This document shows positions 14,318-18,220 of a stretch of 64,000 bases of DNA, in pieces (positions within the stretch are counted from its first letter, which is position 1; every line of letters starts with the position of its first letter). The stretch is from Roseinatronobacter domitianus (GTDB taxonomy: Bacteria; Pseudomonadota; Alphaproteobacteria; Rhodobacterales; Rhodobacteraceae). The stretch lies in the NCBI RefSeq assembly GCF_023336755.1, contig NZ_JALZWP010000003.1, positions 186,001-250,000 on the forward strand, in the 5' to 3' direction. The notes beneath the pieces were generated by a model that saw only the letters and a list, made by a program, of their open reading frames with translations, was not told where the DNA came from and searched no databases. A program made the position numbers and the translations under genes.

Positions 14318-14643
14318 CTGACTTGATAGAAGTGGAGGTAACTTGCCCGGACGCGGACAGCGCGCGGCAGATTGCCCGTGCGGCTTTGGAAGCGCGGCTT
14401 GTCGCTTGCGCCAATATCCTGCCGGGGCTGGAAAGCCTGTTTCACTGGCAGGGGCAGATCGATTCGGAAAGCGAAGTGCTGGTGCGCATGAAAGCGCCCG
14501 CCGGACAATTCGATGCGCTCTGCCATGTCATCGCCGCGCACCACCCCTACGAGCTGCCTGCCATCACCGCCCTGCCCCTTACCGCTATCGGCCCCGGCGT
14601 GGCCGAATGGGTGGCAACCGAATGTCAGGACGCAAACACCTGA
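14314..14643 (+). CDS. cutA: CutA divalent-cation tolerance protein
   Basis: 109 residues. It shows the CutA1 pattern: VEVTCPDADSARQIARAALEARLVACANI, FHWQGQIDSESEVLVRMK and YELPAITALPL, in that order and at the usual spacing. CutA is a small ferredoxin-like trimer linked to copper and other metal tolerance; the biochemical role is still unclear. It is translationally coupled to the preceding glycosyltransferase-like gene (ATGA overlap), and its 3' end overlaps the convergent glyoxalase-fold gene by 19 bases. Confidence 0.92.
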   Translation: MTDLIEVEVTCPDADSARQIARAALEARLVACANILPGLESLFHWQGQIDSESEVLVRMKAPAGQFDALCHVIAAHHPYELPAITALPLTAIGPGVAEWVATECQDANT

Positions 14644-15038
14644 TCGGCGCTGGCATAGCCCTTGACCTCTATCGGGTTGCCCGACGGGTCACGGAAGAAC
14701 ATGGTCCATTGTTCACCCGGCTGGCCTTCATACCGTAGGGTCGGCGGGATCACGAACGCCACGCCCGCCGCGTCCAGCCGGTCCGCCAGCGTTTGAAATC
14801 GGTCGACATCCAGCACCAGCCCGAAATGCGGCATCGGCACCATGTGATCGCCCACCTTTCCCGTGGGGGTGTTGGCGAAGGGCGCGCCTAAATGCAGACT
14901 AATCTGATGGCCGAAAAAGTCGAAATCCACCCATGTCTCGGTGCTTCGCCCTTCGGCACAGCCCAAGGTCCCGCCATAAAAGGCGCGCGCGGCGTCCAGA
15001 TCGGTCACATGATAGGCGAAGTGAAACGGCATCAGCAT
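14625..15038 (-). CDS. VOC (glyoxalase/bleomycin-resistance fold) protein
   Basis: 137 residues from ATG 15038 with an excellent GGAGG ribosome binding site. The protein has the two beta-alpha-beta-beta-beta modules of the vicinal-oxygen-chelate superfamily: FHFAYHVTDLDAARAFYGGTLG at the start and MFFRDPSGNPIEVKGY at the end. Candidate metal ligands are H6 or H8 (N-terminal strand), H49 and the final-strand Glu. The substrate is not predictable. The gene is monocistronic and its end overlaps that of cutA on the other strand. Confidence 0.82.
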   Translation of the reverse strand: MLMPFHFAYHVTDLDAARAFYGGTLGCAEGRSTETWVDFDFFGHQISLHLGAPFANTPTGKVGDHMVPMPHFGLVLDVDRFQTLADRLDAAGVAFVIPPTLRYEGQPGEQWTMFFRDPSGNPIEVKGYASADQVFAS

Positions 15039-15133
15039 GGGCAATCCTCCTGTTTGCATGTTGGTATCCCTGCACGCCAAAACAGGCAAGCGCCCCTCTG
15101 GACCCTGCGCGCGCGCAACCCTATAAGGCGCGC

Positions 15134-15181
15134 ATGAATATTATAGCGATCATCCAGCGAATTAGCGTCCCGGCACTCTGA
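15134..15181 (+). CDS. Putative isoleucine-rich leader peptide upstream of ileS
   Basis: A 15-codon ORF, MNIIAIIQRISVPAL, starting 5 bases after AAGG. Five of 15 codons specify Ile (ATT, ATA, ATC, ATC, ATT), including the rare ATA. It lies 63 bp upstream of the isoleucyl-tRNA synthetase gene and its stop codon falls at the start of the loop of a perfect 10-bp hairpin. Such composition in front of an Ile-related gene is the hallmark of ribosome-mediated control. That is an inference from position and composition; no conservation check was possible. Confidence 0.55.
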   Translation: MNIIAIIQRISVPAL

Positions 15182-15199
15182 CGCGCGCGGAGTGCCGGG
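15169..15199 (+). promoter_or_regulatory. Attenuator-like hairpin upstream of ileS
   Basis: A perfect 10-bp GC-rich stem CCCGGCACTC/GAGTGCCGGG with an 11-base loop that contains the stop codon of the Ile-rich ORF. It is followed by TTCGATT, a weak U-tract. The loop and the sequence upstream of the ORF (around 15109-15133) share alternating GC runs that could pair with each other as a competing structure. It is placed to act as a terminator or attenuator of ileS; the geometry differs from classic leaders because the left arm is inside the ORF. Confidence 0.5.
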
Positions 15200-15244
15200 T
15201 TCGATTGCGCTTGCCCCTTCCCCAATTTGCGAAAGATCGCCCCA

Positions 15245-18220
15245 ATGACCGACTACAGAGACACCCTATCCCTGCCCGAAACCGACTTTCCCATGCGCGC
15301 TGGCCTGCCTGCGCGCGAGCCCGATTGGCTGGCCCGTTGGGAGCGCTTGGGCATCTATGACCGGCTGCGTGCGAATGCCGAAGGTCGTAAACCGTTCATC
15401 CTGCACGATGGCCCCCCATACGCCAATGGACACCTGCATATCGGCCACGCGCTGAACAAGGTGCTGAAAGACTTCATTACCCGCAGCCAGCAAATGCTGG
15501 GCCGCGATGCGCGCTATGTGCCGGGTTGGGATTGCCACGGCCTGCCCATCGAGTGGAAGATCGAAGAGAAATATCGCGCCGAAGGCTTGGACAAGGACGC
15601 GGTCGATGTGGTCGATTTCCGTCAGGAATGCCGCCGCTTTGCCGCGGGCTGGATCGACGTGCAGCGCGAGGAATTCAAGCGCCTTGGCATTACCGGGAAA
15701 TGGGACAAGCCTTATCTGACGATGGATTACCACGCCGAAGCCGTGATCGCGGGTGAGTTCATGAAGCTGGTGATGAACGGGTCACTGTATCAGGGGTCCA
15801 AGCCCGTGATGTGGTCGCCGGTGGAAAAAACCGCGCTGGCAGAGGCCGAGGTGGAGTATCACGAGCATACGTCGCATACGATCTGGGTGCGGTTTCCTGT
15901 TGTTGCTGTCAGTTCCAATGAGTTTGCTGACGCCGTTCAACGACTCCTCTTGGACCAGAACGAAGGAGAAGTCGCGTCTAAAGAAGTCTTCGATGAGCTT
16001 CTTTCTGCTTCGGTCGTCATCTGGACCACCACACCTTGGACCATCCCACAAAACCGCGCTGTGTGTTTTGGCCCCGGTATAGCTTATGGGCTTTATGAGA
16101 TCACAGAAGTGCCAGAGGGTTCAAACTTGGAACTCGGAGCCAAAGTAATCTTGGCTGAGGCGCTTGCAGAAACAGCTTTTGCACAAGCAAAGGTTAAAGC
16201 GACACTACGCCGAAGCGTCAGCAGCCGTGAACTTGTCGCCCTCACCCTCGCCCACCCCTTCCGGGGCGTCGAAGGCGCAAACGGCGAATGGGATTTCGAC
16301 GTGCCCATGCTGCCCGGCGACCATGTGACCGATGACGCGGGCACCGGGTTCGTGCACACCGCCCCCAGCCATGGCGATGATGACTATCAGATGTATCTGC
16401 AGTTCAAGGATCAATATCCTGACTTCAAAATGACTTACAACGTCGAGCCGGATGGCAGCTACCGCACCGACCTGCCGCTGTTTGGCGGCGAAGTCATCAT
16501 CAAGCCCGATGGCAAGGAAGGCGGCGCGAATGTCGCGGTCATCAAGCAACTCGCCTATGCCGGTGCGCTGTTTGCCAAGGGCAAGCTGAAACACAGCTAT
16601 CCGCATAGCTGGCGGTCGAAAGCGCCGCTGATCTACCGTAACACCGCGCAATGGTTCGCTGCCATCGACAAACCGCTGGATGACGGCATGGGCGAACATG
16701 GCGACACGATCCGCAAACGCGCGCTGGAAAGCATCGACCGGCTGGTGAAATGGACACCGCAAACCGGGCGCAACCGTCTGTTTTCGATGATCGAAAACCG
16801 CCCCGACTGGGTGCTGTCTCGCCAGCGTGCTTGGGGCGTGCCGCTGACCTGTTTCGTGAAAAACGGCGCGAAACCGACCGATCCCGATTTCCTGTTGCGT
16901 GACGAACAAGTCAACGCCCGGATCAAGGCTGCGTTCGAAACCGAAGGCGCAGATGCGTGGTATGTGCAAGGTTTCAAGGAACGCATCCTTACAGGGCTGC
17001 ATGACCCGGACGCGTATGAGCAGGTTTTTGACATTCTGGATGTCTGGTTCGATTCCGGCTCGACCCATGCCTTCGTGTTGCGTGACCGCGAGGATGGCAG
17101 CCCGGACGGGATCGCAGACCTGTATCTGGAAGGGACCGACCAGCACCGTGGTTGGTTCCATTCGTCTATGCTGCAAGCCTGCGCCACCAAGGGCCGCGCG
17201 CCTTATCGGGGCGTGTTGACCCACGGCTTTACGCTGGACGAAAAGGGCATGAAAATGTCCAAATCGCTTGGCAACACTGTCGCCCCGCAAGAGGTGATCG
17301 ACCAATACGGCGCCGATATTCTGCGCCTTTGGGTCGCGCAATCCGACTACACTGCGGATTTGCGCATCGGCAAAGAAATCCTGAAAGGCGTGGCGGACAG
17401 CTACCGCCGCTTGCGTAACACGCTGCGCTTCATGCTGGGCAATCTGGATGGCTGGTCAGAGGAAGAGCGCGTTGCCCCCGCTGATATGCCCGAACTGGAG
17501 CGGCTGATGCTGCACCGGATGGCAGAGTTGGACGGCGTGGTGCGCAAAGGCTACGACGCTTACGACTTTCAGGGCGTGTTCCAAGCCTTGTTCAATTTTG
17601 CAACAACGGACCTGTCGGCTTTCTATTTCGACATCCGCAAAGATGCACTTTACTGCGATTCGCCCGACAGCCTGCGCCGCCGCGCATCGCGCACGGTGCT
17701 GGACCTGTTGTTCCACCGGCTGGTGACATGGCTCGCCCCGATCCTGCCGTTCACCATGGAAGATGTGTGGCTGTCGCGCTTCCCGTCCGCGGATGACAGC
17801 GTGCATCTGCACGATATTCCGGCCACGCCTTCGGACTGGCTGGACCCGGCATTGGCCGAACGCTCCAAAACCGTGCGGATGGTGCGGCGTGTCGTGACCG
17901 GAGCGCTGGAAGCAGAGCGCCGCGCCAAGACCATTGGTGCCAGCCTGGAAGCGGCACCCATCGTCCACCTGACCGACGCGCAAGCCCAGATCGTAACCGA
18001 CCCGGAAACCTTCGCGGATTTGTGCATCACATCGGGCGTGACCCTGACCACCACACCGGCCCCCGAAGGCGCGTTCACGCTGGACGACGCACCCGGCGTC
18101 GCCGTTGTCTTTGCCCGCGCCGAAGGTCAGAAATGCGAACGCTGCTGGAAGATCAGCCCCGACGTGGGCAGCCACGCGCACCCGAACACATGTGCGCGAT
18201 GCAGCGCCGCCTTGGGGTGA
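15245..18220 (+). CDS. ileS: Isoleucyl-tRNA synthetase
   Basis: 991 residues from ATG 15245; a TTG 18 bases upstream is rejected. Class I motifs are present: HIGH at residues 65-68 (GHLHIGHALNK) and KMSKS near 670 (GMKMSKSLGN). The editing domain has WTTTPWTIPQNRA, and the C-terminal zinc finger CERC/CARC lies near residues 963-987. It charges tRNA-Ile. Odd points are the upstream Ile-rich leader with hairpin and a stretch at about 15890-16235 (residues 216-330, editing domain) with visibly lower GC and different codon use, suggesting recombination with a foreign ileS. Confidence 0.96.
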   Translation: MTDYRDTLSLPETDFPMRAGLPAREPDWLARWERLGIYDRLRANAEGRKPFILHDGPPYANGHLHIGHALNKVLKDFITRSQQMLGRDARYVPGWDCHGLPIEWKIEEKYRAEGLDKDAVDVVDFRQECRRFAAGWIDVQREEFKRLGITGKWDKPYLTMDYHAEAVIAGEFMKLVMNGSLYQGSKPVMWSPVEKTALAEAEVEYHEHTSHTIWVRFPVVAVSSNEFADAVQRLLLDQNEGEVASKEVFDELLSASVVIWTTTPWTIPQNRAVCFGPGIAYGLYEITEVPEGSNLELGAKVILAEALAETAFAQAKVKATLRRSVSSRELVALTLAHPFRGVEGANGEWDFDVPMLPGDHVTDDAGTGFVHTAPSHGDDDYQMYLQFKDQYPDFKMTYNVEPDGSYRTDLPLFGGEVIIKPDGKEGGANVAVIKQLAYAGALFAKGKLKHSYPHSWRSKAPLIYRNTAQWFAAIDKPLDDGMGEHGDTIRKRALESIDRLVKWTPQTGRNRLFSMIENRPDWVLSRQRAWGVPLTCFVKNGAKPTDPDFLLRDEQVNARIKAAFETEGADAWYVQGFKERILTGLHDPDAYEQVFDILDVWFDSGSTHAFVLRDREDGSPDGIADLYLEGTDQHRGWFHSSMLQACATKGRAPYRGVLTHGFTLDEKGMKMSKSLGNTVAPQEVIDQYGADILRLWVAQSDYTADLRIGKEILKGVADSYRRLRNTLRFMLGNLDGWSEEERVAPADMPELERLMLHRMAELDGVVRKGYDAYDFQGVFQALFNFATTDLSAFYFDIRKDALYCDSPDSLRRRASRTVLDLLFHRLVTWLAPILPFTMEDVWLSRFPSADDSVHLHDIPATPSDWLDPALAERSKTVRMVRRVVTGALEAERRAKTIGASLEAAPIVHLTDAQAQIVTDPETFADLCITSGVTLTTTPAPEGAFTLDDAPGVAVVFARAEGQKCERCWKISPDVGSHAHPNTCARCSAALG

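Follow-up and report, generated by a model that had tools for sequence, protein, structure and literature searches.

We identified a short leader open reading frame (ORF) directly upstream of the isoleucyl-tRNA synthetase gene ileS in a 64,000-nucleotide stretch of Roseinatronobacter domitianus (contig NZ_JALZWP010000003.1, positions 186,001 to 250,000; hereafter the window, in whose own numbering all positions are given), and ileS is very likely regulated through translation of this leader. Judged by conservation in relatives, the most conserved part of the element is an in-frame CGA-AUU-A followed, after 4 nt, by a covarying hairpin (HP1), rather than the run of isoleucine codons. The conservation of the leader before ileS is far beyond chance. 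Sequence comparison supports a promoter, a leaderless ORF, the codon pair, its spacing, the hairpin, and an association with isoleucine genes; the data support only the anatomy, and from it we infer translation of the leader in this organism, ribosome stalling, the direction of the response, and the read-out.

Anatomy of the ileS leader

The leader ORF lies on the forward strand at 15134..15181 and, by ORF translation, comprises 15 codons (MNIIAIIQRISVPAL*), with 5 of these encoding isoleucine in the order ATT, ATA, ATC, ATC, and ATT. The Arg-Ile pair CGA-AUU (codons 9 and 10) together with the next base occupies 15158..15164 on the same strand. HP1 (15169..15199, forward strand), which covaries in relatives, has a perfect 10-bp stem formed by 15169-15178 and 15190-15199 (CCCGGCACTC/GAGTGCCGGG); the stem begins at the 12th nucleotide counted from the C of CGA, with 4 variable bases separating CGA-ATT-A from it. 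The TGA stop at 15179-15181 falls just 3' of the left arm, 63 nt before the ATG of ileS at 15245. The ileS gene itself (15245..18220, forward strand, 991 aa) was identified through TIGR00392, which scored above its cut-off where the gene lies in the genome. The 15-codon ORF, its 5 Ile codons and stop, the 10-bp stem, and the 63-nt gap are all located where the earlier note on this DNA had placed them.

Folding of 15095-15250 was better than in shuffled sequences (z of -2.6, with 2 of 200 shuffles equally good). No Rfam family matched the window at gathering scores (0 matches), and a consensus scan of 15095-15245 returned neither promoter nor terminator, a blank that fits a promoter departing from the strict consensus and a hairpin lacking a U-tract.

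Conservation of the motif and the leader peptide

Searching with ileS yielded 80 Rhodobacteraceae-type loci (the best 80 of 591 relatives), and the exact motif CGAATTANNNNCCCGG preceded ileS in 77 of these closest 80, with the 3 exceptions carrying CGAATAA, CGAATGA, and ACCATTA at the same place and retaining the stem. Within the genus, 34 of 37 genomes harbored the motif, each time just upstream of ileS, and the 3 genomes without it (G009, G014, and G030) had no ileS start in the protein search either; the reversed pattern used as a control matched twice, both times in one genome. The motif with a TGA at the right distance was present in 122 of 149 genomes of the order, genomic position being verified only for the loci fetched, and the reversed control was found in 0 of 149. 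One extra motif match away from ileS was seen in each of 8 genus genomes (G005:C12, G007:C178, G018:C59, G022:C3, G025:C74, G028:C18, G035:C3, and G036:C6).

Leader properties were counted in a set of 185 non-redundant leaders (240 of 250 loci yielded an ileS start); this set includes loci fetched by the motif itself, and its motif frequency is therefore no estimate. Isoleucine made up 24.7% of the residues before the Arg in 159 distinct leader peptides, occurring at positions -1, -2, and -3 in 44, 62, and 56% of them, respectively, and at least 1 Ile preceded the Arg in 139. Rare codons were enriched, with ATA contributing 51 of the 317 leader Ile codons upstream of CGA compared with 0.8% in ileS; across the ileS genes from the 80 loci found with ileS, CGA accounted for 1.4% of Arg codons and ATT for 7.9% of Ile codons. 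By eye, the bases of CGA-ATT-A were mostly unpaired among the single-sequence folds listed. Counting from CGA, the stop came as the 8th codon in 180 of 185 leaders, and across the set it was TGA in 174, TAG in 6, and TAA in 5. Its position sets where an unstalled ribosome sits.

The Ile-rich ORF that the earlier note had proposed as a leader of ileS is conserved in relatives with both its stop and its stem, and the stem covaries. The conserved run of Ile codons that it proposed to look for is chiefly a feature of the Rhodobacteraceae; the wider invariant is a single AUU after CGA.

Covariation and the nature of HP1

We assessed covariation in HP1 on 53 of 60 representatives (alignment A1), the 7 omitted sequences mostly having long or bulged hairpins. 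Pairing cells reached 86.7% compared with 80.4% in shuffles, and double-change cells numbered 34 compared with 14.3, a count reached by 0 of 500 shuffles. The covariation score was 0.21 and dropped to 0.05-0.13 on sliding the partner, and all of G-C, A-T, T-A, and C-G were seen at the seventh pair from the base. One of the 5 measures did not exceed shuffles: 4 pairs carried a double change, compared with 3.3. Pairs derived from folds lean toward structure, and the first 8 pairs were recounted without folding. A covariance model of the hairpin (R1) gave a single match at E <= 0.1 in the genome of the window, among the best 150 of 4505 candidates scored, and 9 of 11 genomes had a match when the best 150 candidates were scored in each.

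A TTTT within 15 nt after HP1, taken as the U-tract signal, occurred in 5 of 183 relatives, with 2.5 ± 1.6 expected, and HP1 as an intrinsic terminator was ruled out for lack of a U-tract. The earlier note had called the U-tract weak, which understates the case: the 183 relatives carry no U-tract signal, and a terminator-type hairpin is not supported.

Promoter and leaderless start

The family promoter consensus, derived from 178 leaders, reads CTtGAC, 17 nt, CTATAA, with the counterparts in the window at 15098-15103 (CTGGAC) and 15121-15126 (CTATAA). Position-specific conservation across the 178 aligned promoters marks a putative -35 box, TGGACC, at 15099..15104, and the spacing from TATA to ATG in relatives marks a -10 box, TATAAG, at 15122..15127, both on the forward strand. 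Six bases (GCGCGC) separate TATAAG from the leader ATG, and the A of this ATG (15134, forward strand) is the predicted transcription start, based on promoter spacing and on the start reported in Methylorubrum extorquens (see below). A script search identified a TATA box near the ATG in 178 of 185 leaders, with 7 lacking it; the first T of TATA lay 12-13 nt from the ATG in 164 of these 178, and in all 178 the first ATG after TATA was in frame with CGA with no intervening stop.

According to the available part of a differential RNA sequencing (dRNA-seq) study of M. extorquens, ileS has a start 150 nt upstream with the promoter TTCCCC-17-TAGAAGcgctcca, and no leader ORF is mentioned there for this start (PMC9320726). 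The published promoter string was present in 6 of 111 genomes of one genus, and in all 6 the A of ...CTCCATG opens a leader-type ORF such as MFGLILVPPRITGPASA. Four of these genomes have ileS at its usual start, and the distance from that A to ileS was 150 nt in 3 of them and 149 nt in 1. The published start coincides with the A of the leader ATG within one base, the printed notation leaving a one-base doubt.

On this combined evidence, the ileS leader ORF is leaderless, transcribed from its own AUG, and for the organism of the window this is a prediction. The AAGG that had been taken for a plausible ribosome binding site overlaps TATAAG, the -10 box of the promoter conserved in 178 leaders, and the upstream GC repeats that had been offered as a competing pair would fall outside the predicted transcript. 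The earlier note had named a transcription start downstream of 15181 as evidence against a leader; the predicted promoter instead lies just upstream of the ORF. A divergent ORF on the minus strand (14625-15089), of glyoxalase/VOC type by eye only, adjoins the ileS promoter.

The element in other families and before ribF

The class Alphaproteobacteria was sampled with 133 genomes, almost every one from a different family, and 130 of them had an ileS match. In 24 of these 130, including 2 Rhodobacteraceae, the motif lay 107-431 nt upstream of ileS and on its strand; for this count, the motif and ileS lists were matched by eye and the distances then checked separately. In one further genome, the motif lay 1269 nt before ileS, ahead of ribF (FAD synthetase domain, PF06574). 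By eye, leaders of the other families start just after a -10-like box, read ...R-I-x-x-P-[A/V]..., and mostly lack the Ile run. The longer leaders at L359, L360, L362, L364, and L366 seemingly share a tail after the hairpin (at L360, for example, VEDRVVAIRP...CHVV), and this tail may be conserved as well.

We inspected 32 loci without the exact leader motif, and in 26 of these the end of ribF precedes ileS by similarity. CGAATTA was present on the sense strand in 3 of the 32 (L308, L317, and L337), where it is part of the reading frame in the final codons of ribF (Flavokinase, PF01687) and a stem of unrelated sequence begins at nucleotide 12-13, directly before ileS. These ribF-embedded cases, modest in number (3 of 26), keep the codon pair and the spacing where leader, stop, and stem sequence differ. 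Two more of the 32 loci (L306 and L309) have leaders with CGAATTC. A distribution of the element outside Alphaproteobacteria was rejected, with 12 pattern matches compared with 24 for the reversed control in 146 genomes drawn by phylum (by eye).

A second target with possible links to isoleucine synthesis

Among 73 listed motif places, 30 loci were obtained, and 18 of these had a contiguous stem of at least 6 pairs. Either ileS or a small ACT-like gene lay shortly downstream in 17 of the 18, a count limited to the loci obtained and including L280, itself the source of an ACT query. The 12 loci without such a stem comprised 3 with ileS and 2 with an ACT-like gene downstream, 1 with an ileS match 828 nt on, and 6 with neither. 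A NUDIX gene of one type was present in the fetched stretch in 8 of 18 genomes with the motif and an ACT-like gene; 5 proteins of this type checked in Pfam had DUF4743 and NUDIX, with NUDIX below its cut-off in one. In one genome, threonine ammonia-lyase IlvA (PF00291, PF00585, TIGR01124), the first enzyme of isoleucine synthesis, follows.

The ACT label comes from a single ORF that matched the acetolactate synthase small subunit below threshold (E 0.011, 15.7 bits, cut-off 56.9) and from reading of the sequences, and Pfam recognized none of the ACT-like ORFs even at E 10. The link to isoleucine therefore rests on the codons, ileS, and ilvA. The genes for IleRS, the ACT-like protein, and the NUDIX enzyme, and once ilvA, possibly form an isoleucine regulon. 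The leader precedes a small ACT-like gene among the motif loci of other families L253, L254, L262, L266, L267, L269, L271, L273, L278, L280, and L353-L372; at L353 (G215), a single ACT-like gene is preceded by two stem-bearing copies of the motif, both on one strand and separated by 200 nt.

Proposed mechanism and alternative explanations

We consider it probable, with real room for doubt, that the leader acts in cis to raise IleRS when charged tRNA-Ile is short, a ribosome waiting on the leader disturbing HP1 and relieving attenuation. Transcription would begin at the leader AUG, and a ribosome would load at once on the 5' end and reach the position where CGA occupies the P site and AUU the A site. 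HP1, from the 12th nucleotide, would then stand at the mRNA entrance. The 12th base is about where mRNA enters the ribosome, which is also where frameshift-stimulating hairpins sit. In yeast, CGA read by inosine slows the next decoding step, and the inosine-adenosine wobble at a P-site CGA is known from work on inhibitory codon pairs. With ample Ile-tRNA, the ribosome would pass, terminate, and leave, so that HP1 could form and RNA synthesis into ileS would be curtailed. With scarce Ile-tRNA, it would wait at AUU, and in Rhodobacteraceae also at the preceding Ile run; HP1 would then be disturbed or late, and ileS would be transcribed. The read-out may be premature termination, with Rho dependence as the first candidate, since HP1 has no U-tract and general occlusion of the Shine-Dalgarno sequence is not supported.

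Several observations weigh against this mechanism or against its generality. In ribosome-masked folds, a ribosome positioned on the initial Ile codon of the run leaves HP1 free, the opposite of the effect of waiting at AUU, and the sign of regulation therefore depends on where the ribosome waits. C exceeds G after HP1 (36% C, 23% G), but the start of ileS is similar (38% C, 25% G), and this composition is therefore no distinctive sign of a rut site. Isoleucine before the Arg is absent altogether from 20 of the 159 distinct peptides, and the stop position, fixed in Rhodobacteraceae, is variable in other families. The exact motif near ileS is missing in 106 of the 130 sampled genomes, CGAATTA is lacking in 23 of the 26 ribF-type loci, and no contiguous 6-pair stem was found at 8 motif loci before ileS (L256, L259, L276, L379, L386, L394, L397, and L398). 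Beyond the ACT-like gene, a HisZ-like ORF (below cut-off) at L364 and an alpha/beta hydrolase at L365 also fit poorly with an isoleucine function.

Control of ileS initiation by translational attenuation, in which translation or stalling on the leader would open the Shine-Dalgarno region of ileS, appears unlikely. It would account for the minimum free energy fold of the window, in which GCGATC (the Ala-Ile codons at 15146-15151) pairs with GATCGC just before ileS, but by eye this pairing is confined to near relatives. Folds of 143 leaders with a ribosome masked at the Ile run, compared with one at the stop codon, predicted accessibility of the ileS start to rise by more than 0.05 in 54 and to fall in 10; the mean change was only 0.04, however, and the ribosome-free and stop-bound states showed no mean difference. 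Shine-Dalgarno occlusion is not supported as a general rule, since the masked folds gave no large, consistent change.

A classic three-hairpin attenuator of the trp/ilv type would make HP1 the 1:2 pairing. A second hairpin (HP2) would serve as terminator, and its left arm would pair with the right arm of HP1 as the antiterminator; we regard this as quite unlikely. HP2 (AAGGYGY...RCRCC) does follow HP1 in a subset of Rhodobacteraceae, and its pairing is concordant in 49 of the 59 AAGGYG sequences (26 T-A, 23 C-G, 10 other). In the 49 of 59 that were aligned (alignment A2; the 10 omitted were mostly of uneven length or poor fit), all cells of its 5 pairs form, a 100% that is flattering given the omissions, and the 23 double changes all fall within one pair. 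AAGGYG is nevertheless present in only 59 of 142 representatives, and the window has no HP2 in that form. The 2:3 antiterminator, feasible in 82% of cells, showed no covariation beyond shuffles, which speaks against it, and to the missing U-tract after HP1 is added the absence, by eye, of a general one after HP2. The suggestion in the earlier note that control may depart from the classic model is supported.

It is very unlikely that CGAAUUA and HP1 instead form an RNA binding or cleavage site, such as one recognized by IleRS itself or by RNase E, with the ORF being incidental. CGAAUUA is kept as nucleotides beyond what the peptide requires, as such a site would predict, but the reading frame is kept by the ORF in 178 of 178 leaders and by CGA-ATT-A where it is embedded in ribF (3 cases), and rare Ile codons are enriched in the leader. 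The sole leader among the 80 without CGA (L108) reads ACC-ATT-A, and the Ile codon stays.

More tentatively, and as a possibility that we rate below even, CGA-AUU-A with a stem from the 12th nucleotide may constitute a portable one-codon sensor of tRNA-Ile charging that is widespread in alphaproteobacteria. The P-site CGA would make the next codon hard to decode, the hairpin at the entrance would hold the ribosome, and the supply of Ile-tRNA would set the waiting time. Such a sensor could function either within a leader of its own or within the final codons of the gene before its target, would need neither an Ile run nor an intrinsic terminator, and would have ileS, ribF-ileS, and ACT-NUDIX(-ilvA) as its targets. 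The leader before ileS would be a widespread control element of an essential synthetase gene; with an ORF of only some 15 codons that lacks a ribosome binding site, annotation easily misses it. It suggests that one slow codon pair against a hairpin can act as an amino-acid sensor.

Comparison with known systems

T-boxes recognize tRNA by direct binding and do not depend on translation. In the window, no T-box family of Rfam matched at gathering scores. The comparisons that follow refer to the available parts of the cited papers. The T-box leaders of actinobacterial ileS resemble the present element in placing ileS under RNA control linked to its tRNA (PMC1262725). We found no description of a CGA-AUU-A/hairpin element before ileS in the portion of the open literature consulted, which does not cover older attenuator surveys, so an earlier description is possible.

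The leader peptide of trpL/rnTrpL in Sinorhizobium meliloti, also an alphaproteobacterium, is leaderless as well and close in length (14 aa), whereas it belongs to a tryptophan attenuator of trpE (PMC10117765). In tnaC and other Rho-dependent leader peptides, as may be the case here, the position of the ribosome on the leader ORF may gate Rho, and in tnaC the ribosome stalls at Pro24 when tryptophan is high (PMC12218461); in contrast, the conserved feature of the ileS leader is a codon pair next to a hairpin, and the role of Rho is putative. Two parallels come from Caulobacter crescentus, another alphaproteobacterium, in which the ilvBN leader likewise contains Ile codons and precedes genes related to isoleucine (PMC4117421). 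The ilvBN attenuator is described as being of the Rho-independent terminator type (PMC4117421), whereas here the target is ileS, no U-tract is present, and the CGA-AUU pair is the most conserved part. The nearest match in print is a figure legend in a ribosome-profiling study of the same species, which names CCNA_03934 the "ileS leader CDS"; this small CDS upstream of ileS served as a negative control for another gene, its sequence, motif, hairpin, and regulation not being discussed in the available text (PMC4117421). CCNA_03934 is probably the same element as the leader in the window, and by analogy with it the leader would be translated in R. domitianus as well.

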